Source of the DNA: Flavobacteriaceae bacterium
Lineage (GTDB): Bacteria > Bacteroidota > Bacteroidia > Flavobacteriales > Flavobacteriaceae
DNA length: 64,000 bases
Assembly: GCA_013001285.1 (NCBI GenBank)
Contig: JABDMU010000003.1
Coordinates: 1-64,000, forward strand
Direction of reading: 5' to 3'
Part shown: one piece after another, positions 5,830 to 24,004 of the stretch
Layout: each line of letters begins with the position of its first letter
How positions within the stretch are numbered: the first letter of the stretch is position 1
Notes under the pieces: generated by a model
Told to the model about the DNA's origin: nothing
What the model saw: the letters and a program-made list of their open reading frames with translations, nothing else
Databases searched by the model: none
Made by a program: the position numbers and the translations under genes

Positions 5830-8800
5830 TTATGGCCCGATAATTAATTTTTTATTGAGAAGCCCAAAAGCCGTATTTACTTTTACAATATAAATGCCTG
5901 GATTGACTTGAACTGGTATAGAAATGCGCTCAGAATTCTCATCGATTGAATCTAATTCTATGATTCTTTGACCTATAGAATTATAAAGGGACATGTTTAG
6001 GGCCCTGTTGTTTTGTTGTAAATTAATTTGAATTGAAGAAGCTTGTGTATCATAATAAATTACATAATCATTATTGATTACGTCATCAACTGTTAGCACA
6101 ACTCCAAGTTGAAACACCAGTGTAAATCTAGAATTATATTCACCCGGTTCTAGTTGTATTTCAAATGGGCTATTCAAAATATTTTGGATTGCGCCCGTTA
6201 ACTCATCTTTGATATAAAGCTTAAGATTTGGATCTACATGTTCTAAGGCATCTATTCCTATTTTGATAGTTCCTGACTCATTTACGATCAATCCCAATGG
6301 AAATTCTTGGGTAACATCAAAATTGTTAACCCCTTGAATGACAAAGTTATTATCATCAATAATCCAATACATGTCTTCTTCATTGATATCGGCAATAAAA
6401 GCGTCATATCCAAGATCAAATCCATTGGTTGCTTCTGGTTTCTTACCCAATACAATTTGTCGGTGATATCCTTTTGGTGAATCATAGGTCAATCGTATTG
6501 TTGGTGTATTATCAATTATTTCTTCAGATATATTATTTCGAAATGGGAAGTCTCCTGTGACTTCATTTGCACTCATGAATATCGAATTTGATGCATCTTC
6601 CCGTACAAATACACGTTGGCTATTTTTAAATACAACGTCACCACCGTCAACGGTGCTGATTGGCACTCCATCATCATTGTTAAAGCCATCTAATGTGGTT
6701 GAAACAAAAAATCCTTGATTTACCGGGATATATGGTCCCGGGACTGTTAGACCTACTGCTGGATTTCCATTATCGGAGGTATTATTAATTAGAATGTCAT
6801 TAGAAATTGCAACTGCACCGCCTGTCAAATTTCTTGTGGCATAACCCCCGACATAATCACCTAGGATGTGCGAATTTTGTTCGCCAAAATGATTCCAAAA
6901 ATATAAAGCACCATTAAATATGGTTCCATTAGGGTTTGTGCCACCATCAGCAATACTTAAATTATCTAAAATAAACTCAGTGGCATCAATGGCTGACGGA
7001 TACGGATTACCTATCAATCTATCAACATTACCGGAGGAATTATCAAGTGGAACTGTAATGTCTCCGTTAAAAGGAATTCCTTTAAAGACATAATTTTGAA
7101 AATCTAATAATATATCAGTCGCTCCCGATGTTCCCTTCATGGTAAAGCCTTCCCCAGGTTGCAATGATGTATTTTCATCTATTGAATTCCATGCATTATA
7201 ATCATCTGATGCTCCGTAAAACTTATAAAACCAGTAAGAACTTACAGTTCTAGGATTTGTAGGTGTGTTTGAATCTGCAGCAGTATACGAAGGGCTAAAA
7301 GTTAGGTTTTGATATGCAGCTGATGATGTACCGTCATTTAGGAATCCGGATACTGAATAACTCGAATTCGTATTTGATATACCTGTTCCGCGTGTTAAGG
7401 TGTTTCCGGTTATAGGACCCACTGACGATGACCAATAATTATAATTAAACCCATTTGATGTTCCCTGCTGGTCACGTTCAATATAACCACCACTATCAGC
7501 GTCAATAATACTGCCTTCAGACTGAACTAATTGAGATTCACCAATAAGATCAATAACACCATCAATCTCCATATAATGTGTAACTGTTAATCCTTGTCCT
7601 GAATTGGTTTCATCCTGAGGGTCAGTTGGATCCGCTATTGTAATTGTTCCTGAATTATTTTTTAATCCTAATAGAACGATATCGCGATCACCCGAGGTTA
7701 TATTATGAGAGGTTTCAACAATATTCCAATCAATTATAGTCGTGCCATCTAAACTTAAAGAATTAGGAATTACCTGATCTGCATTATTACTCCATGTAGT
7801 GCCTGAGTCCCATGCGCCATCAGCAGCTGTTATGTAAGGTGCTGGTATTGACTGAGTTTCGGCAATGGTTTTATCCTTATTTAGATATTTCAGTCGTAAA
7901 AAATTTCGATCATCTGTAAGTCCTTCAATGGTTGAACCATAAAATGAATTAAAGTCGTAGTAGGCCTTTAGATTACTCCATGGAATACTAGCAACTTCAT
8001 TACTGGCACTCACTTGTGGTAATATTTTTCCAGTAACATAATCGGTGCCAGTGTTATCATAACGTTCAATTTCTTGATTCATAAGATATTTGACTTGATC
8101 ATGAGTTAATCCCTGATCCCAAACATAAACCTCATCAATTTCTCCTAAAAACGGATTAATGATGCTATTTTTATCTATGAATAAGGCCCCTAGAGAAAAC
8201 CGATTATAATTAGGCGTGGGTGCTTCTACATTTTGTTCTGACCTATCTAATACACCATCTATATATAAAAATATCGTTCCACTTTTATAAACAAAGGTCA
8301 CCTGATGCCATTTCCCATCATTTACGACCATAGAAGATGTAAATCTTGGCGTTACATCGTCATCTACCATAACTTCAATTTGATCTGAAGCATTTAATCT
8401 CAATTGCAACTTGCTTCCTTTGGCCATAATGGTTCTAACATTAGCACTAGACGCACTTTTTATCCACGCTGAAATAGTAAAAGCATCAATATTTAAATTG
8501 AGGGCATATTCACCAACTAAATAATCTCCAGCTGAAATACTTACAGACCTATTTCCTGTGAGCTTAGGAGCTTTACCAAAGGTGAAATATTTGGTGCCAT
8601 CGAAATCATACCAGGTTTGAAGATTCGATCCTCCATCAGATTTAAGTGGGATAACGTCAATAATGTCGCCATTTGCAAAATTATCATTATCAGCCACAAT
8701 TAATACGTATTCCTCGTCTGCAGTCTTGGAGAAACCACTAAAGGCAGCCGAAGGGATACTAACAAAGACGTTTCCAACATCACTTGAAGCTTCGGTCGAT

Positions 8801-10836
8801 TCAATAATTTTCCATTGTCTTGAAATTCTTGTCAATGATGTAGTAACACCAGTACTAATTGTAATTGTGTTAGAGCCACTTGCTGTATATGCGGCATTAT
8901 TACTGCCCCATGTCAAGAAATCTCCGTCTTTTTGAAATTCATTGGTATTGGCACTATTTGTTGAGAATATTCCATTTAAGCCTAAAGTGACCTCATTTAT
9001 TAAATTTATGGTTCTTGATTGTTTTTGATTTAAATCAGAAATAGAATCACGTCCAATTCCAGCAACATGATAATTGTATCCTGTATGTGCTGAAATATCC
9101 CATATAGAAGTCCCAAACGAGTTGATATAGTCCTTTTGTGCTTCATTTGATGAACCTAAAGTAATGCCATATTTAATTGCTAAATAGGACTCAATTTTTT
9201 GACGGTCGGCATCTGGCACCCTTTCAGCAAATGTAAAAATCTCAGCTACACGTCCATTTAAATTGCCTTGAAGGTCAAAGTTTTTTCCGATCAGGTATTG
9301 CGTACCCATAATAACATCAGGATCTGGTACAGTATCTAAATATCCAACATTAATGAATGGAATATCATCAACTGAAGACGTCGTCAATACGGACGAATTA
9401 TAAATAATATCCTGGCCAGTCGGTAATGTAGGGTCATTATTTCGGATATTGATAATTCCTGCGTTTGAGTACGAAGAATTTAATTCAGCATAGCCATTAA
9501 AAGCGCCAGCCGCAGCAACATCCTGATTATAAGAAAGTGTTTCATTGGTAAATTCTGTTGAATAATCTCCAAAACCAACACCTGTAATATCACCTGGGAG
9601 TCCTGTTGCTATGCCCGAAAAAATAGTGTTTCGAGATGACGTATTGGTCATTGTAGCATCTGGTATCATGACAATAAATATGTCCTGACTATAAAATCCA
9701 TTGCTTGTATTTTCTAAGTATTCTTCAACTGTTGCCCCATCATTCACAAATTTGATAACCGGATTAAAATTAATATTTGAAGCAGCTGTATCTAAAAAAG
9801 TAGGCTGATTAGCTGCTGTTCCTTGAGATGCATCTTTTCCATTTGATCCTAGGTCTTCCCAAAGCGACACTTTTCCTGCCGATTGGGTTATCCCTCGTGT
9901 TGACTTCAGCCAAAGTCTGAAATCTGCGGTAATACCTCCAGGACCTGGAATATCAAAATCAAACATTTCCGCACTTACATCAAAGGTAAATGTCGTGTTG
10001 TCACTGTTTGAGACGCTTATCGTAGAGGTAAGGGTTCCAGAACCTCCTACAGGACCAGTAAAGGTTACTATAAAAATAATAAAGGATCCAGGATTAATAC
10101 TTTCAGTGAGAAACGCTGGGGTATAATCTGGTAATAATACATAAGGGGCAACCGCAAAATCACTGAGTGAACTTGTTATAGATGTTATGTCTAATGGGCA
10201 ACTTCCTGTATTTGTTATGATAAAATTTCTAGAAACCGAAGCTCCTTCAGCTATGACTCCGAAATAGGTACCATTAATTGAACTCGTGGTGGTATCACCG
10301 TTTGATATATCTGCTAATGGCGAACCGCCCAATACTGAAATCACCGGCGAGCTATTCACTTCTAAGGTAAAGGTAAAATCAGATTGATTTTTGATCTCGA
10401 TAGTAACCAGCGTACTGGTTGTTGAACAGGTTAAATTTAGATTTTCAATTTCAAAATCTAATAATTTCTTGCCTCCGGGACAATCTTCTGGTTTTATATT
10501 CTTCTTTGGATTACCTGGATTAATATCAAAATCTGTTGTATTGGCAATATCAACATCTTCAATTTTCAAATTAGAACAATTGTTTGTCTCAATGTTAGTA
10601 ATCCGAAAATCCAAGCTATTACCTGCATTGATGGTAACAGTTGATCCTTGAGTTACCACAGATCCACCAATCACCTCAAGCTGCATGACTTGAGCATTAC
10701 CAATAAAGCCAAACAGAAATAATGCCAAGACCAAGCTCAAATGGCATAGTTTAGGCAGTTCATGTGTTCCATTAATTGTCTTATCAACCTTCGTGAAAAG
10801 ACAACATAGGAGGGCTTTTGGGAATAGGTTGTTCAT
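5830..10836 (-). CDS. Large cell-surface protein with LamG domain and T9SS type A sorting domain
   Basis: 1668 residues. An unusually long N-terminal export region ends in a hydrophobic core and GNAQ near residue 49. After it come a choice-of-anchor-D-like region (about 150-290; TNTGSCPLDI), a segment starting FRLWLKS (about 300-560) common in large Bacteroidota secreted proteins, and a LamG/concanavalin-like domain (about 760-925; DAFTISAWIKS, DGKWHQVTFVY, GEIDEVYVWDQGL). The last ~80 residues (LYNSIGQRIIELDS to VNPGIYIVKVNT and KKLIIGP) form a T9SS type A sorting domain, so the protein should be exported through the type IX system and attached to or released from the surface. An adhesin or polysaccharide-binding role is inferred. 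It is monocistronic, with a consensus promoter and paired direct repeats upstream. Confidence 0.9.
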   Translation of the reverse strand: MNNLFPKALLCCLFTKVDKTINGTHELPKLCHLSLVLALFLFGFIGNAQVMQLEVIGGSVVTQGSTVTINAGNSLDFRITNIETNNCSNLKIEDVDIANTTDFDINPGNPKKNIKPEDCPGGKKLLDFEIENLNLTCSTTSTLVTIEIKNQSDFTFTLEVNSSPVISVLGGSPLADISNGDTTTSSINGTYFGVIAEGASVSRNFIITNTGSCPLDITSITSSLSDFAVAPYVLLPDYTPAFLTESINPGSFIIFIVTFTGPVGGSGTLTSTISVSNSDNTTFTFDVSAEMFDFDIPGPGGITADFRLWLKSTRGITQSAGKVSLWEDLGSNGKDASQGTAANQPTFLDTAASNINFNPVIKFVNDGATVEEYLENTSNGFYSQDIFIVMIPDATMTNTSSRNTIFSGIATGLPGDITGVGFGDYSTEFTNETLSYNQDVAAAGAFNGYAELNSSYSNAGIINIRNNDPTLPTGQDIIYNSSVLTTSSVDDIPFINVGYLDTVPDPDVIMGTQYLIGKNFDLQGNLNGRVAEIFTFAERVPDADRQKIESYLAIKYGITLGSSNEAQKDYINSFGTSIWDISAHTGYNYHVAGIGRDSISDLNQKQSRTINLINEVTLGLNGIFSTNSANTNEFQKDGDFLTWGSNNAAYTASGSNTITISTGVTTSLTRISRQWKIIESTEASSDVGNVFVSIPSAAFSGFSKTADEEYVLIVADNDNFANGDIIDVIPLKSDGGSNLQTWYDFDGTKYFTFGKAPKLTGNRSVSISAGDYLVGEYALNLNIDAFTISAWIKSASSANVRTIMAKGSKLQLRLNASDQIEVMVDDDVTPRFTSSMVVNDGKWHQVTFVYKSGTIFLYIDGVLDRSEQNVEAPTPNYNRFSLGALFIDKNSIINPFLGEIDEVYVWDQGLTHDQVKYLMNQEIERYDNTGTDYVTGKILPQVSASNEVASIPWSNLKAYYDFNSFYGSTIEGLTDDRNFLRLKYLNKDKTIAETQSIPAPYITAADGAWDSGTTWSNNADQVIPNSLSLDGTTIIDWNIVETSHNITSGDRDIVLLGLKNNSGTITIADPTDPQDETNSGQGLTVTHYMEIDGVIDLIGESQLVQSEGSIIDADSGGYIERDQQGTSNGFNYNYWSSSVGPITGNTLTRGTGISNTNSSYSVSGFLNDGTSSAAYQNLTFSPSYTAADSNTPTNPRTVSSYWFYKFYGASDDYNAWNSIDENTSLQPGEGFTMKGTSGATDILLDFQNYVFKGIPFNGDITVPLDNSSGNVDRLIGNPYPSAIDATEFILDNLSIADGGTNPNGTIFNGALYFWNHFGEQNSHILGDYVGGYATRNLTGGAVAISNDILINNTSDNGNPAVGLTVPGPYIPVNQGFFVSTTLDGFNNDDGVPISTVDGGDVVFKNSQRVFVREDASNSIFMSANEVTGDFPFRNNISEEIIDNTPTIRLTYDSPKGYHRQIVLGKKPEATNGFDLGYDAFIADINEEDMYWIIDDNNFVIQGVNNFDVTQEFPLGLIVNESGTIKIGIDALEHVDPNLKLYIKDELTGAIQNILNSPFEIQLEPGEYNSRFTLVFQLGVVLTVDDVINNDYVIYYDTQASSIQINLQQNNRALNMSLYNSIGQRIIELDSIDENSERISIPVQVNPGIYIVKVNTAFGLLNKKLIIGP

Positions 10837-10940: not shown

Positions 10941-11261
10941 CTACATTTTGAGCATTCTACTTTCTTAAATATCATGTAGTCCTAATCCTAATATTAAAAA
11001 TTTACTTTTTAAAGCTCTTTTTTTACAATTCTTAAATTTTAATTATTCAAAATATTTGATTGATAAGAGTACGCTTAAAGTTAGGTTATTCTTTAGAACA
11101 GAAATGCATGAAATCCAAGGTATTTTAGTGATTTTAACCGCCTTGAAATGAGGCAAATAACTAGGAAATATCATAATTTTTCACTATCTTTAAAAGTTAA
11201 CTATAGTAGTTAGACTTTCAACTTAATGTTGTTTGGGAAATAATTAATTAATACACTAATT

Positions 11262-12164
11262 ATGAGTAAGCACACAAGTAAAGTCCATGGTAAATTAAAC
11301 TTTCTAATCGTGGCGGTTGTAGTAGTTATTGGAGCAGTCCTTTATTTACTAGTAGCCTCTGACACAAATGTATTTAATCCTGAAGAATTATCCGGTTCTG
11401 GCGGGAAATCAATTGATGGTGTCAAAAAAGCACAAAAGCACAACAACAAAAATGATGTTGTTGTCAGTCTTGACGGGGAAGATGTTCAGAAATTTCTGAA
11501 TAATCAAGATTTTCAAAAGATGGTTGCAAATCCGGAATTTGCAAAACTAGTCGCATCAGCAGATTTTCAAAAAATGATGACGACTCCTGATTTCCAAAAA
11601 ATGGTAGCTGCGCCTGACTTTCAAAAAATGATGGCCACACCTGACTTCCAAAAGATGTTAGCAAAGCCTGATTTTAAGAAAATGATGGCGACGCCAGATT
11701 TTCAAAAAATGTTGGCAGAGCCTGACTTCCAAAAGATGTTAGCATCTCCCGATTTTAAAAAGATGATGGCAACACCTGATTTTAAAAAAATGATGGCAAC
11801 ACCTGAATTTAAGAAGTTAGCATTGTCACCTAATTTTAAAAAGATGATGGCAACACCTGACTTTCAGAAATTGATGGCATCTCCTGATTTTAAGAAGTTA
11901 GCCTTATCATCTGATTTTAAAAAGATGATGGCAACACCTGACTTTCAGAAACTGATGGCAAAACCTGATTTTAAGAAGTTGGCCTTATCACCTGATTTTA
12001 AAAAGATGATGAGTTCTTCTGATTTTAAAAAGATGTTAGCAGCACCTGATTTTCAAAAAATGTTAGCAGCACCTGATTTCCAGAAAATGATGGCTAATCC
12101 AGATTTTAAAAAAATCGTTTCAGCTCCTGATTTTCAAAAAAGGATGACAACAACAGATTATTAA
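11262..12164 (+). CDS. Membrane-anchored protein made of 25 nonapeptide repeats
   Basis: I do not recognise a named family. The 300-residue protein has a short basic N-terminus, one transmembrane helix (about 13-33; LNFLIVAVVVVIGAVLYLL), a polar linker (34-74), and then 25 consecutive 9-residue units from residue 75 to 299. The consensus is F-[QK]-K-M-[ML]-A-x-P-D, with Y300 as the last residue. The N-terminal helix lacks a signal cleavage site, so the repeat part is probably periplasmic and tethered (N-in). Phe and Met/Leu at fixed positions suggest short amphipathic helices broken at each Pro-Asp. The units recall the NPxFQxM pattern of STI1-type motifs, but in an uninterrupted 9-residue frame. 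It is followed by its own terminator, then the gluzincin-barrel gene. Function is unknown. Confidence 0.85.
   Translation: MSKHTSKVHGKLNFLIVAVVVVIGAVLYLLVASDTNVFNPEELSGSGGKSIDGVKKAQKHNNKNDVVVSLDGEDVQKFLNNQDFQKMVANPEFAKLVASADFQKMMTTPDFQKMVAAPDFQKMMATPDFQKMLAKPDFKKMMATPDFQKMLAEPDFQKMLASPDFKKMMATPDFKKMMATPEFKKLALSPNFKKMMATPDFQKLMASPDFKKLALSSDFKKMMATPDFQKLMAKPDFKKLALSPDFKKMMSSSDFKKMLAAPDFQKMLAAPDFQKMMANPDFKKIVSAPDFQKRMTTTDY
11484..12158 (+). repeat. 27-bp tandem repeat array, 25 units
   Basis: The nonapeptide array is encoded by 25 in-frame 27-bp units. Units 12-20 (11808-12050) show a higher-order 81-bp period, with FKKLALS, FKKMMAT and FQKLMA units recurring in that order. This points to growth by duplication of triplets. 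Confidence 0.9.
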
Positions 12165-12186
12165 GAACCAGCTTAAGGAAAGAATT

Positions 12187-12220
12187 AAAGGAGAAAATTA
12201 TATTTTCTCCTTTTTTATTT
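12187..12220 (+). terminator. Rho-independent terminator after the nonapeptide gene
   Basis: An 11-bp stem AAAGGAGAAAA/TTTTCTCCTTT with loop TTATA runs straight into a T tract. Confidence 0.8.
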
Positions 12221-12230
12221 AACTTTATAT

Positions 12231-15200
12231 ATGAAAAAACGAATAATTTTAGCCTTTTTAAATTTATTGTTTTTAAATACAGTATGTTCTCAATTCAATA
12301 AAATTGAGACAAATGACTTTAACGTTGTTAGTACCAGTCCACAATTTGATTACGTCTTAAATCATGCCATACGCTGTTCGCATAACGCCTTAACCTTTCA
12401 TAAGCGCTTATTTGAATACGAACCAAAAGAGAAAATATTTGTATTGTTCCAAGATTTTGGTGATTATGGAAATGGAGGTGCAACTTCTCTGCCAAATAAT
12501 CTCATTTCTACCTGTATATCACCACTAAATTATGCCTTTGAATCAAGCGTTGCAGGTGAACGGGTCTTTTCAATTATGAATCATGAACTTGTTCATATAG
12601 CAGCATTAGACAATGCTTCAAAATCTGATTTATTTTATCGTAAACTATTTTTTGGCAAAGTTAAAAGTTCGAATGACCATCCTATTTCTATGTTTTATAG
12701 CTATTTAACTAGCCCCAGGTACTATTCCCCAAGATGGCTGCATGAAGGCATAGCTGTGTTTGTAGAAACCTGGATGGATGGTGGAAAGGGGAACGCTCTT
12801 GGAAATTATGATGAAATGTTTTTCAGAACAAGGGTCCTTGAAGATAGTAGGATCTATTCAGCTCAAGGATTAGCCTCAGCTGGTACATCGGCTGATTTCA
12901 TGTCTAAAGCCAATTACTATTATTATGGCACCCGATTTGTCAGTTATCTTGCCTATACACATGGCCCGGACAAACTCATAGAATGGGTGCAACGAAAAGA
13001 TGATAGCAAAAGAGGCTTTGCCTCAAGTTTTAAACACATTTATGGCATCTCAATTTCAAACTCATGGGACAATTGGATTGCTTTTGAAAAAGATTTTCAA
13101 CATAAGAATATAGAACTCATAAAAGAGAATGCCATCAGTAAGGAAGAACTCATTACCGATAAAGTTCTTGGTGGTGTTTCCTTTGCTTATTACGACAAAA
13201 AACGGGGTAAAATTTTTGTTGCAGTTAATTACCCTGGAAAAATACCGCATATAGCCGAATTAGACCTAGAAACAGGCAAAATTAAAAGATTAAAAGACGT
13301 TAAAGGTCCAACACTATTTAATGTAACCTCGCTGGCGTATGATGAAAAAAATGAGCTGCTTTTTTATACTACTGATAATGATGATAAAAGAGACTTAAAT
13401 TCATTCAGCCTAACGACAGGTCAATCAAAATTGTTACAAAAAGATTGCCGTATTGGAGATTTGGCATTTAACAAAGTTGATGAATCTATTTGGGGCGTAA
13501 AACATCTCAACGGCATTAGTACTTTGGTTAGAATACCTAAAATAGATAAAGAAAACCCGACCGACCACTACTCAACCTGGGAGCAAAAATATACACTGCC
13601 CTATGGTTCTGATATGTTTGACATCGATATTTCTCCTGACGGACAAAGTTTGAGTGCTGGATTAACCGATCTAAATGGCAATCAGTTCTTGAATATTTAT
13701 GACATCGATTCGTTTACATCATTTGAGGAGGCAACTATCACGTTTAAAGAAGTTTTCAATTTTGATGTTGCATCGCCACAAAGTTTTAAATTTTCTGAAG
13801 ATGGAAGCTATTTAATCGGCTCATCTTATTATTCTGGTGTAAGCAATATATTTAAAGTAGATACAAATTCTTTAAATATTGAAATTCTCACGAATGCTGT
13901 TTCAGGATATTTTAGGCCTGTACCAATTGATGATGATAAATTCTTTGCCTTTAAATACACAAGCAACGGGTTTGCCCCTATTTTTGTTTACTATAATGAA
14001 AATATCGAAGTTTCTCCAATAGAATTTTTAGGAAATAAAACGGTTGAGAAATATCCTGAGCTCGAAGACTGGAGAGTAGACGTTCCGAATTCTCAAAATT
14101 TTGATGATGAAAGCATTCAAGCTAAAACCGGTATATATATTCCTAAAAAAGAAATTAAATTAAATTATGCCTATCCAACTATAATAGGTTATAAAAACAA
14201 AATTGGGGTTGGTTATAATTTTAAACTTCAAGACCCTTTAGGTTTGAAGGCTTTAGACGTTTCAATAGCCTACACTCCCAATCAATGGGAAAACAATTTA
14301 GACGATTCGCAAAGTGATATTGAAAAGGATGAAGAATTCCATGCATCGGTCAAATATTCAACAGCCAAATTAAGCGGTCTTTTATCTGGTAAGTACGACT
14401 TTTACGCTCATTATAATCAAGCTGATTTTTACGATCTTTTTGGACCTACAAAACGCTCAAGAAAAGGAATAAACCTTGGTTTAGAATATACGCAATCTTT
14501 GATTTTTGATAATCCTAAAAATCTTGATTTAAGAATTGGTGCAAGTGCCTATTATGGGTTGAATCAGTCTCCAGAATTCCAACAAATAAATTTTGAGAAT
14601 CAAGATTTTAATACGAATCTGTTTTATAATATTTACAGCTCATTATCTTACAGAAACCTAAAGGGATCTGTAGGTGCAGTTGATGCCGAAAAAGGGATCA
14701 AGTCCAGTTTAACTGTGTCTAATTCAATCACAGAAGGGAATTTTTTTCCTAGGATAATAGGCAGCCTTGATATCGGGTTTCAATTGCCATTGAACCATAC
14801 CTCCTTTTGGGTAAGAACTGCTTTTGGGAACTCATTTAGTAAGAACATCAATCCATTTACCCGCTTCGGATTTGCCTCCTTCGGAAACAACTATATTGAC
14901 AATGCAGCGTCAAAAATGTATAGAGGGTCGTTTGCTTTTCCAGGTTTAAGATATGATTCTGAGAAAAGCATTATTGCGAGACGTTTTTTTAAAACAACTT
15001 TAGAACTGGCATTACCGCCTATACGTTATAGAAAACTTGGCTTTTTTAACATGTTCGCAACGCATTCTCATGCCACGATATTTACCAGTAGCCTTTTTAC
15101 ACATAACTATGGACCCACAATTACCGATGATGAAGTTATAACCGCAGAATACAATGAACAATTTCAAAATATAGGCTTTCAAATTGACACCAAACTCGTT

Positions 15201-15308
15201 TTATTCTCTCATTTATCTTCAACCTTTTCATTTGGTTGGGCAAGAGCGTTTGAAATTGGAAACGACAATAAATCTTATAATGAATGGATGGTCTCATTAA
15301 AATTTTAA
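12231..15308 (+). CDS. Exported gluzincin-type metalloprotease with propeller-like and predicted outer-membrane barrel regions
   Basis: 1025 residues with a Sec signal (MKKRIILAFLNLLFLNTVCS). The N-terminal third has a zinc protease signature: HELVH at 118-122 and a downstream PRWLHEGIAVFVE, where Glu172 is the likely third ligand as in gluzincins. Residues ~300-620 contain recurring TolB/WD40-like blades (IDISPDGQSLSAG, FKFSEDGSYLIG). From ~645 on, alternating polar/aromatic strands and a segment resembling C-terminal barrel proteins (YRGSFAFPGLRYDSEKS; terminal SLKF) suggest an outer-membrane beta-barrel. Automatic pipelines tend to call such proteins TolB-like, but the HExxH domain suggests proteolysis. 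It is probably co-transcribed with the PrsW-like gene 6 bp downstream. Confidence 0.75.
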   Translation: MKKRIILAFLNLLFLNTVCSQFNKIETNDFNVVSTSPQFDYVLNHAIRCSHNALTFHKRLFEYEPKEKIFVLFQDFGDYGNGGATSLPNNLISTCISPLNYAFESSVAGERVFSIMNHELVHIAALDNASKSDLFYRKLFFGKVKSSNDHPISMFYSYLTSPRYYSPRWLHEGIAVFVETWMDGGKGNALGNYDEMFFRTRVLEDSRIYSAQGLASAGTSADFMSKANYYYYGTRFVSYLAYTHGPDKLIEWVQRKDDSKRGFASSFKHIYGISISNSWDNWIAFEKDFQHKNIELIKENAISKEELITDKVLGGVSFAYYDKKRGKIFVAVNYPGKIPHIAELDLETGKIKRLKDVKGPTLFNVTSLAYDEKNELLFYTTDNDDKRDLNSFSLTTGQSKLLQKDCRIGDLAFNKVDESIWGVKHLNGISTLVRIPKIDKENPTDHYSTWEQKYTLPYGSDMFDIDISPDGQSLSAGLTDLNGNQFLNIYDIDSFTSFEEATITFKEVFNFDVASPQSFKFSEDGSYLIGSSYYSGVSNIFKVDTNSLNIEILTNAVSGYFRPVPIDDDKFFAFKYTSNGFAPIFVYYNENIEVSPIEFLGNKTVEKYPELEDWRVDVPNSQNFDDESIQAKTGIYIPKKEIKLNYAYPTIIGYKNKIGVGYNFKLQDPLGLKALDVSIAYTPNQWENNLDDSQSDIEKDEEFHASVKYSTAKLSGLLSGKYDFYAHYNQADFYDLFGPTKRSRKGINLGLEYTQSLIFDNPKNLDLRIGASAYYGLNQSPEFQQINFENQDFNTNLFYNIYSSLSYRNLKGSVGAVDAEKGIKSSLTVSNSITEGNFFPRIIGSLDIGFQLPLNHTSFWVRTAFGNSFSKNINPFTRFGFASFGNNYIDNAASKMYRGSFAFPGLRYDSEKSIIARRFFKTTLELALPPIRYRKLGFFNMFATHSHATIFTSSLFTHNYGPTITDDEVITAEYNEQFQNIGFQIDTKLVLFSHLSSTFSFGWARAFEIGNDNKSYNEWMVSLKF

Positions 15309-15314
15309 AATCCG

Positions 15315-16088
15315 ATGAATACTGTATTTAAAACGAGTTTTATCATGAGTATTCTCATAACATTGCTTTATGTGGTGTTATTTTATCCATTGGTTTTAAT
15401 TAATATTTTAACTTTTTATGACCTGTTATTGGTCAGTCTTTCCATTCTACCTGGGTTTCTAATTTTATCACTGATCTATAACTTGGACGCACAAAATAAA
15501 GAACCCTTATGGTTGCTTGCTATTGCTTTTATTTTAGGTGCTGTAAACTTGCATTTAGATATTGACATTTTAGAATACCTGTTAAGCTTTAATGATGATC
15601 AAAATAACTTAATAAGCGCTGGCGTTGAAGCACTCACCGTAGCTACAACCGAAGAATTATTAAAATTTTTAGTGGTCATGATAATTATTTATCCCAATAA
15701 ATATTTTGATGAACCATTTGACGGTATCGTCTATTCTGTATTCGTTGGAATGGGATTTGCTACTGCCGAAAATTTAACCTTTGTATTGCAAGGTTCGGCG
15801 TCGCTTGCTTTTATGAGAATGCTCACTGCAGTTCCAGCACACTTTGTGTTTGCTGTTATTATGGGCTACTATTTAGGAAAAGCCAAAAGTGATAAGAAAA
15901 AACAATTATTTTTTATCGTACTCTCACTTATATTACCCATTATTATTCATGCTCTTTATGATTATTTCTTATTTATAGACTTTATTCCTGGTATTTGGAT
16001 TGGTGGTATTGCAACTCTTATTATTGCCTTGTATATCGCAAATAAATCAATTCAAGAACATATGAACGCTTCTCCCTTCAAAAAATAA
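15315..16088 (+). CDS. PrsW-family intramembrane metalloprotease
   Basis: 257 residues with about eight hydrophobic segments. It carries the conserved PrsW motifs: TTEELLKF (Glu113-Glu114), GFATAENLTF (Glu152, Asn153), the PAHFVFAVIMGYYLG helix (His176) and HALYD (His212). PrsW in Bacillus cleaves an anti-sigma factor in the membrane; the substrate here is unknown. It starts 6 bp after the gluzincin-barrel gene, so the two predicted proteases form an operon. Confidence 0.9.
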   Translation: MNTVFKTSFIMSILITLLYVVLFYPLVLINILTFYDLLLVSLSILPGFLILSLIYNLDAQNKEPLWLLAIAFILGAVNLHLDIDILEYLLSFNDDQNNLISAGVEALTVATTEELLKFLVVMIIIYPNKYFDEPFDGIVYSVFVGMGFATAENLTFVLQGSASLAFMRMLTAVPAHFVFAVIMGYYLGKAKSDKKKQLFFIVLSLILPIIIHALYDYFLFIDFIPGIWIGGIATLIIALYIANKSIQEHMNASPFKK

Positions 16089-22741: not shown

Positions 22742-24004
22742 ATGATTGTTTCTACTCTAAAAAAATGCTATTTGGCATTTTTTACCCTTGTCTTTTTACA
22801 AGGGAGCCACTACGCATTAACAAAGCATGAACATGCTATTGATGAGCAAAATGAACTGCTTTCTAACAACACAAAGCAAGCGTCCAGTGTTTCAGACAAT
22901 AGTTTTATGAATGACTGTAATGAAACGGCCTTTGCATTTTTAAACACTGACGATGATCCGTTAGCAGTCGATAACCAAAGCACATGCTTTATCCCACAAT
23001 TTAATCGTTGGGGTTGGACCACGTTTTTGGATTTTTCTGAAGACACTGGCCAGTCCTCTTATACCTTAGATATTTATGCTGGTGCAGGACAATGCGATTT
23101 ATCAAAGGGGTCTGATGTGGGTTCGGTGACTGTAACCTATAATGAAGACAGCACCATTACATTCAATTATAGTCTGGAAGGGTTTTTACTCAGTGAAGCT
23201 CACATTTATGTAGGCACCGAACCGTATCCAACAAATAATAGCGGAGCAGAAACCGTTGCTCCAGGCCAATATACATTTACAGATTCCGACTTCGGAGAGG
23301 TAGCAGATTTTACAGCTACACTTCCAGTTGAAGGCACAGGATTCTACATCATTGTTCATGGTGTAACTCAGGCAGAAGACTGCCCAGATGGAGAATGTGA
23401 AGACAGTGATGCTGATGGTATTTGTGATTCAGATGATGTTTGTCCAGGATTCGACGACACTATTGACCTTGACGGAAATGGTATTCCTGATGGCTGTGAT
23501 TGTGAGGACAGTGATGCTGATGGTGTATGTGATACAGATGATGTTTGTCCAGGCTTTGATGACAGCATTGACAGTGATGGTGATGGTATTCCTGATGGCT
23601 GTGATTGTGAGGACAGTGATGGAGATGGTGTATGTGACACTGATGATGTTTGTCCAGGATATGATGACACCATTGACAGTGACGGTGATGGTATCCCTGA
23701 TGGATGTGATAATGTAGCCTATGCTCCTCAGTTATTCGACGCGTATCCGGTTCCATTTAAAAATAAGTTAAATGTTCGTTACACCTTCGATTATGAAACC
23801 TATGTGAACGTGGAAGTTTATGATCTCAAAGGGACTAAGCTATTCGAATTCGAAAATAAAAACTATGTTGCCGGCACAGTAGGTCAGACAAAACTTGATC
23901 TTTCTCACGCCAGCGGTCAGTTATTATTTGTTAGGCTAACAACGGTAAAAAATCAGTTTGCAAAGAAGATCGTTTCTTCTAGTACGAAGCCGATTAAAAA
24001 TTAA
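22742..24004 (+). CDS. Secreted protein with three thrombospondin type 3-like repeats and T9SS sorting domain
   Basis: 420 residues. A hydrophobic N-terminus (to about 25) serves for export. Residues 80-210 form a beta-rich domain of unknown family. Residues 219-323 are exactly three 35-residue units of the pattern CEDSDxDGxCDxDDVCPG, Asp-rich loops that bind calcium in thrombospondin type 3 repeats. The C-terminal ~95 residues (YPVPFKNKLNVRYTF, VEVYDLKGTKLFEF, QLLFVRLTT) fit a T9SS type A sorting domain. Expected to be on or released from the cell surface, with the repeats as a calcium-stiffened stalk. A direct-repeat regulatory pair precedes it. Confidence 0.85.
   Translation: MIVSTLKKCYLAFFTLVFLQGSHYALTKHEHAIDEQNELLSNNTKQASSVSDNSFMNDCNETAFAFLNTDDDPLAVDNQSTCFIPQFNRWGWTTFLDFSEDTGQSSYTLDIYAGAGQCDLSKGSDVGSVTVTYNEDSTITFNYSLEGFLLSEAHIYVGTEPYPTNNSGAETVAPGQYTFTDSDFGEVADFTATLPVEGTGFYIIVHGVTQAEDCPDGECEDSDADGICDSDDVCPGFDDTIDLDGNGIPDGCDCEDSDADGVCDTDDVCPGFDDSIDSDGDGIPDGCDCEDSDGDGVCDTDDVCPGYDDTIDSDGDGIPDGCDNVAYAPQLFDAYPVPFKNKLNVRYTFDYETYVNVEVYDLKGTKLFEFENKNYVAGTVGQTKLDLSHASGQLLFVRLTTVKNQFAKKIVSSSTKPIKN
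23396..23710 (+). repeat. 105-bp tandem repeat, three units
   Basis: Three in-frame 105-bp units encode the 35-residue TSP3-like repeats. They are near-identical at DNA level, so copy number may vary by recombination. Confidence 0.9.

Follow-up and report, generated by a model that had tools for sequence, protein, structure and literature searches.

Two described signalling systems come closest to the locus considered here. In B. subtilis, according to the part of the source considered here, site-1 cleavage of RsiW, an anti-sigma factor, is carried out by PrsW (PMC3498285). The proteins of the Dma family, as presented in the consulted part of their description, combine on one chain an N-terminal anti-sigma domain, a transmembrane helix, a long disordered tether and a C-terminal beta-barrel, and have an ECF21 sigma factor as a partner (PMC13088901). 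For the operon reported below, no description was found among the papers listed in our literature search, with subscription journals mostly outside its scope.

The window, i.e., the whole analysed stretch of 64,000 nucleotides from a marine Flavobacteriaceae bacterium (assembly GCA_013001285.1), is part of a 65-kb contig in a genome of 2.88 Mb in 88 contigs. It contains an operon of three genes on the + strand, in the order repeat gene, C1 (after a gap of 66 nt) and PrsW (after a gap of 6 nt); the two proteases that the first-pass annotation had predicted beside the repeat gene indeed adjoin it, downstream and on the same strand. The features of the operon are as follows.

11262..12164, + strand: gene of the membrane-tethered nonapeptide-repeat protein, 300 aa (open reading frame; relatives found)
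11262..11300, + strand: N-terminal tail, residues 1-13, presumed to be cytoplasmic (identical in 10 relatives at 12 of its 13 positions)
11301..11357, + strand: transmembrane helix, residues ~14-32 (hydropathy; helix in the AlphaFold2 model)
11406..11507, + strand: conserved linker, residues 49-82 (alignments A1 and A6, linker profile)
11484..12158, + strand: array of 25 nonapeptides, residues 75-299 (Tandem Repeats Finder, unit-by-unit analysis)
12187..12213, + strand: hairpin resembling a terminator, in the gap that separates the repeat gene from C1 (recurs in other loci)
12231..15308, + strand: C1, 1025-aa protein with a predicted metalloprotease, propeller and barrel
12582..12596, + strand: HELVH zinc motif of C1, residues 118-122 (invariant in 15/15 aligned C1 proteins)
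15315..16088, + strand: intramembrane protease of the PrsW family, 257 aa (121.7 bits with Pfam PF13367, whose cut-off is 23.5)

In its proposed working the repeat protein of the window is partly Dma-like and partly PrsW/RsiW-like, and by the features compared here it is a member of neither system. Like Dma it has a transmembrane helix (by hydropathy), which is preceded by 13 residues only, with no N-terminal anti-sigma domain, which is present in the fused proteins of the related loci that we call class I; where Dma has its tether stands a periodic array, modelled as helical at low confidence, and the chain ends with this array, the barrel strands being found in C1. No sigma gene was found within 7 kb in the window. 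The class I loci share with Dma, as far as the consulted description goes, the ECF sigma partner, the anti-sigma domain, one predicted inner-membrane helix, the long, presumably periplasmic region and a predicted outer-membrane barrel; unlike in Dma, the barrel belongs to a separate protein, C1, which also bears a predicted protease and a propeller, the presumed periplasmic region consists of a repeat under selection, not described as disordered, PrsW is encoded in the operon, and the window version is devoid of the anti-sigma domain (PMC13088901). As to PrsW/RsiW, on the same partial footing, class I likewise has a PrsW-family protease beside an anti-sigma factor and an ECF sigma factor, whereas the repeat ectodomain and C1 are additional here, and in the window PrsW occurs without an anti-sigma factor (PMC3498285).

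The repeat protein

The array of 25 uninterrupted nonapeptides, noticed already in the first-pass annotation, is gap-free in the frame claimed and makes up 225 of the 300 residues, the three quarters that had been stated, and the only hydrophobic helix found by hydropathy is the N-terminal one. Tandem Repeats Finder detects a 27-bp array of 22.1 copies (score 377) at 11562-12159. The first unit, VQKFLNNQD, is divergent, and 24 full units follow from 11508. Among these, F and K are invariant (24/24), the D position is occupied by D in 21, by E in two and by N in one, and P is present in 20; the M/L positions are more variable. The 24 units comprise 23 distinct sequences at the DNA level and 21 as peptides. 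Since pS between them is near saturation (0.72, with pN of 0.22) and dN/dS is ~0.11, the array is old and held at the protein level by purifying selection; fresh slippage as its origin is rejected on account of the synonymous saturation. The 18-mers of a related locus, L010, are under weaker constraint (dN/dS of 0.31).

The AlphaFold2 model gives each unit a helix of ~7 residues and a turn of two, which bears out the helical repeat proposed earlier, at low confidence (mean pLDDT 56, pTM 0.26); a fold search with this low-confidence model produced no match (best E 0.21). In 18 of the 26 nine-residue arrays examined, S, T, N or D stands three residues before F in at least 70% of the units; the share is 51-57% in L010 and L082, and the feature is absent as a rule in L075, L089, L133, L159, L161 and L162. 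This unit grammar agrees with a helix that begins anew in every unit, whether proline is present or not.

The linker of the window protein carries the motif I-x-G-V-x-K-A-x-K, followed by D-G-E-x-x-Q. The N-terminal tail (residues 1-13) shows 97% identity in ten relatives starting with MSKHT, the following segments showing 64-75%, and its DNA in those ten relatives contains synonymous changes. The tail may have a role in the cytoplasm or in recognition by PrsW.

The first-pass annotation recognized no named family with this exact frame, which needs qualification. Five Pfam models (STI1-HOP_DP, Ribos_L4_asso_C, UBQLN1, BA_2335-like and DUF1965) and the NCBIfam model TPR_END_plus pass their cut-offs on the window protein; all these matches span stretches of ~19-43 residues only. 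The STI1/HOP DP model scores 38.2 bits against a cut-off of 29.1, its best stretch covering 24 of 55 positions. Because many unrelated models pass together on short stretches, we read these matches as an effect of periodicity, which is arguable, and in our judgement set aside membership in the STI1/ubiquilin and TPR-end families. What the array does share with STI1/HOP DP and ubiquilin (PF17830, PF23195) are short helical motifs of the N-P/D-P-x-F type, but it has an unbroken nine-residue period, and the match extends over ~20-45 residues per stretch. The nonapeptides of the coagulation factor V B-domain also have a nine-residue period with S-P-D (phmmer E 9e-24); factor V, unlike the bacterial array of the window, is a vertebrate plasma protein, and kinship with it was rejected, the likeness being taken as a chance effect of periodic sequence. 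A phage origin of the repeat gene was rejected as well, as a search of viral contigs with six short patterns found no relative of the repeat protein.

C1, PrsW and the operon

Residues H118, E119, H122 and E172 of C1 are invariant in the 15 aligned proteins, which come from all three classes of locus; the gluzincin-type combination of HExxH with a downstream glutamate is thus present in 15/15, and E172 is a candidate for the third zinc ligand. Pfam Peptidase_MA_2 matches the C1 of the window at E 2.1e-4, below the cut-off, and six of the 15 members at E<=0.1. In the AlphaFold2 model of C1 (mean pLDDT 66, pTM 0.54) there are a helical domain, a propeller at ~300-590 and a run of long strands, which we read as a probable barrel. 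Foldseek places TolB first (E 2.4e-7), and the propeller re-aligned to TolB gives Z 22.1 (rmsd 2.9, 241 aligned residues); as several other propellers score equally high (~Z 22), the propeller fold is supported and kinship with TolB is not. Nearly all matches listed by these fold searches are propellers and have no bearing on the other domains of C1. The profile of the C1 N-terminus found no match in PDB below E 0.33.

The PrsW protein of the window, which passes the Pfam cut-off, scores 144.7 bits with the NCBIfam PrsW model, below its cut-off of 225. Of 36 loci, 29 have a terminator-like hairpin no more than 120 nt past the end of the repeat gene, 3.17 being expected from shuffles; among the remaining ORFs of these loci, 45 of 391 are followed by one. 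In 26 of the 36 it lies strictly within the gap between the repeat gene and C1, and in L085 it is weak (9 of 100 shuffles score equally high). Such a hairpin may lead to an excess of the repeat protein over C1 and PrsW.

The divergent neighbour of the operon (5830-10836, - strand) encodes a protein of 1668 aa that contains a Laminin_G_3 domain and a tail for type IX secretion; a protein 58% identical to it is encoded near the same operon in L011 (16363-19362). At 23396-23710 the window has a 105-bp tandem repeat in three copies (88% matches), D-rich and, by eye, calcium-binding-like. In L075, two ORFs of 808 and 207 aa (11101-14315) take the place of an undivided C1.

Distribution

The profile of the N-terminus (alignment A1) has matches, at E<=0.001, in nine of 397 genomes of the family and seven of 296 genomes of the phylum, the own genome being counted in both, and two short patterns yielded 15 named loci, all from Bacteroidota. 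Relatives of the gene therefore exist, and its absence from all relatives, which would have spoken against the first-pass annotation, was not found; the gene is rare, yet scattered across the phylum Bacteroidota. Three weak matches, in G068, G232 and G480 (E 5.5e-4, 4.4e-4 and 1.1e-4), were rejected as relatives, with neither C1 nor a repeat gene in their regions; G232 is counted in the nine genomes of the family search and G480 in the seven of the phylum search; the ORF in G068 is presumably PpiD-like.

Of 395 phylum genomes, 29 have a strict relative of C1 (E<1e-60), after which the matches drop to E 2.8e-16, and in the family search six of 299 genomes match, all of them strongly. The resulting table comprises 40 loci, 33 from 32 genomes (own included) and seven named, with duplicate contigs excluded and the strict-C1 genomes G500, G767 and G475 left out. 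One genome (G324) harbors two separate copies of the repeat gene and C1 (L086 and L087). At 36 of the 40 loci an ORF lies directly upstream of C1 on the same strand, with a spacing from a 31-nt overlap to 247 nt; at the other four (L134, L142, L147, L151) the contig ends within 480 nt upstream. Among the 36 upstream ORFs, 30 have a clear period, L136 is borderline (period score 0.19, unrelated ORFs reaching 0.21), L137, L138, L139 and L141 have none, and L146 contains a run of N. The unit is of nine residues in most loci, of 12 in L140 and of 15/16 in class III.

Eight further C1 loci, fetched after the pattern had been recognized, served as a held-out set. Five of them have upstream sequence; in each of these the linker profile, run on 73 ORFs, detects the linker (E 7.6e-33 to 9.4e-8), and an anti-sigma-like N-terminus and a helix precede it. 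Four of the five have a clear period of nine or 18 residues, L163 being irregular; the sigma gene is seen in four of the five, the contig of L161 being too short to show one, and PrsW in 7/7 loci with a readable downstream side. The contigs of the other three stop within 450 nt of C1. The contigs of L134, L142, L144, L147, L151, L158, L160 and L164 end within 480 nt upstream of C1, at the expected site of the array; apparently the repeats interrupt assembly.

The comparison of repeat numbers across relatives, suggested in the first-pass annotation, gave a twofold answer: the number is stable among close relatives and ranges from ~13 to more than 40 units between genera. The paralogues L081 and L084 (399 aa each) have an in-register array identity of 68%, compared with at most 43% when shifted; four relatives of 408 aa each align in register at 71-87%; L070, L071 and L073 score 0.79-0.87 in register and at most 0.68 shifted. 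Stability is unclear for L072 and L070 (0.733 versus 0.707 at a four-unit shift) because of an 18-residue period.

Three classes of locus and their descent

The loci fall into three classes by our own definition. Class I, with an ECF sigma gene upstream, includes 11 loci of the table; L134 and L139, where contig ends truncate the locus, were added to it by means of the C1 tree. Genes of the STAS and HATPase_c_2 types accompany the sigma gene in 9/11 class I loci (checked with Pfam for L091). An anti-sigma-like region, recognized by its likeness to the proteins of L091, L092 and L094, is fused before the helix of the arm, as we call the repeat protein and its counterparts, in L091, L093, L133, L135, L136 and the five held-out loci, and is encoded by a separate gene in L092, L094, L137, L138, L140 and L141; the anti-sigma domain is fused to the repeat protein in about half of the class I loci. 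The separate gene of L092 matches an NCBIfam anti-sigma model at E 3.6e-5, below the cut-off, and no Pfam model. In class II (16 loci, including the window) no sigma or anti-sigma match was found within 7 kb on the same strand, and a class I anti-sigma query in the genome of the window retrieved only the helix and linker of the window protein itself (E 0.115). Class III consists of 11 loci with a secreted-looking array of 15/16-mers.

PrsW is present in 14/14 class II and 17/18 class I loci with a readable downstream side, the exception being L136, and was not found in 11/11 class III loci. The arms of classes I and II carry a transmembrane helix, those of class III start with what by eye appears to be a cleavable signal peptide. 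Behind this signal peptide, a short stretch V-x-x-A-x-R-x-R is similar to the linker (E 1.6e-4 at a probability of 50% over 13 columns in hhalign), and the linker profile of classes I and II gave nothing significant on class III (best E 0.14), so that a kinship of the linkers is weakly suggested.

A tree of 45 C1 proteins recovers class II as a monophyletic group (1.0) and, with the root placed on class III, nests it in class I (0.99), the sigma-bearing L138 and L140 lying outside. Because of this nesting, and with the rooting taken as an assumption, class II was most likely derived from a class I-type arrangement by loss of sigma and anti-sigma, a loss that would also have affected the operon of the window.

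In class III, L149 has 16 identical 16-mers, and L148 near-identical 15-mers with dN/dS of 0.03. Oligopeptide-type permeases and a Ser/Thr kinase are encoded near 8/11 class III loci (region of L143-L152; Pfam for L145, and an SBP_bac_5 match in L144); L142, L147 and L151 are without them, and the upstream side is missing from these contigs. Tandem peptide precursors are a general kind of system to which class III may be compared: secreted identical units, a protease and a peptide-type transporter nearby are common to both. In contrast, the units of the window are varied (21 distinct of 24), membrane-tethered and without an adjoining transporter.

Discussion

The occurrence of the repeat protein beside the same C1 gene, together with its partial fusion to anti-sigma factors, suggests an undescribed kind of signalling between two membranes. 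We propose, with about an even chance of being right, that the window protein serves as the periplasmic arm, anchored in the inner membrane, of a proteolytic signalling module that spans two membranes; the arm would engage C1 and be released by PrsW. The operon, its recurrence, the fusions and the selection on the units were observed directly. The topology, docking, cleavage, signal and output of the module would be as follows. The transmembrane helix would anchor the repeat protein in the inner membrane, and the helical nonapeptide array would extend through the periplasm. The conserved linker, perhaps together with the array, would engage C1 at the outer membrane, with its metalloprotease and TolB-like propeller. 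A change in this engagement would let PrsW cut near the membrane and so release the arm; the repeat protein is a likely PrsW substrate, as it is the evident single-span protein of the class II operon. In class I, where the arm carries or accompanies an anti-sigma factor, the release would switch on the ECF sigma factor, while in class II, including the window, the arm, C1 and PrsW would have been retained after the loss of sigma and anti-sigma. This proposal is favoured by the upstream ORF in 36 of 40 C1 loci and in all five readable held-out loci, by the anti-sigma-like regions fused to the arm or encoded beside it, by the nesting of class II in class I, by the conservation of HExxH and E172 in 15/15 C1 proteins, by the role of PrsW in B. 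subtilis and by the fact that PrsW tracks the anchored arms of classes I and II, not the secreted-looking arms of class III. Against it stand the 0/16 class II loci with sigma or anti-sigma genes within 7 kb, the anti-sigma query that retrieved from the genome of the window only the helix and linker of its own protein, the four class I loci without a clear repeat (L137, L138, L139, L141), L136, in which no PrsW was found, and the weak likeness between the class III stretch and the linker.

Several other explanations have to be weighed against this module. The identical or near-identical units of L149 and L148, the R/K at the unit end that closes the complete proteins of L143, L145, L148, L149, L150 and L152, the permeases and kinase near 8/11 class III loci and the hairpin, with the excess over C1 that it suggests, would all agree with a multi-copy peptide precursor, cut by C1 (and PrsW) into short signal peptides that are secreted or re-imported. 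We give this only a small chance, however, as the window protein is membrane-anchored, 21 of its 24 units are distinct, the number of units hardly changes among the related proteins compared, and no oligopeptide-type transporter is found among the genes around the window operon. That same constancy of length (the four proteins of 408 aa, the paralogues of 399 aa in register) and the helical unit grammar speak for a mechanical tether or spacer, a rod that, by way of C1, fixes how far apart the membranes lie, PrsW being a protease of quality control; but the unit number varies from ~13 to over 40 between genera, four class I loci have no clear repeat and the array model is of low confidence, and we consider this explanation no less doubtful than the precursor.

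The pass of the STI1-HOP_DP and UBQLN1 models, on L091 as well as on the window protein, could mean that short helices of the STI1 kind make up a hydrophobic groove to which unfolded envelope proteins bind, and that stress is sensed in this way. Given that unrelated models pass simultaneously, that the matched stretches are short and that the unit is replaced altogether in other lineages, such a client-binding surface is quite improbable. Finally, a constant N-terminus with variable repeats next to a barrel protein is reminiscent of two-partner export, in which C1 would be the exporter and the repeat protein a cargo recognized through its conserved linker. Two of 15 C1 proteins do match Omp85_2 weakly (best E 0.002), but these matches are below the cut-off and POTRA models are absent from the Pfam matches of the 15 proteins; we consider export very improbable.

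A wider variant of the module, to which we attach a modest minority chance, would unite all three classes in a single system: a metalloprotease/propeller/barrel protein of the outer membrane would read, or cut, a partner built of tandem repeats. Class III would then be a peptide circuit (identical secreted 15/16-mers, C1, an oligopeptide importer and a Ser/Thr kinase), class I would use the repeat as the ectodomain of an anti-sigma factor, and the window would represent a sigma-free version with a new output, e.g., the almost invariant 13-residue tail, which PrsW would release.

How information is transferred across two membranes in Bacteroidota is largely open. The proposed module, with its built-in pair of proteases, looks phylum-wide, and its arm has units of 9, 12, 15 or 16 residues or no clear repeat while the partner remains constant. 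If the proposal is true, the role of the repeat ectodomain in regulated proteolysis would be testable by removing or swapping units, and class III would be an unusual tandem-peptide signalling system.
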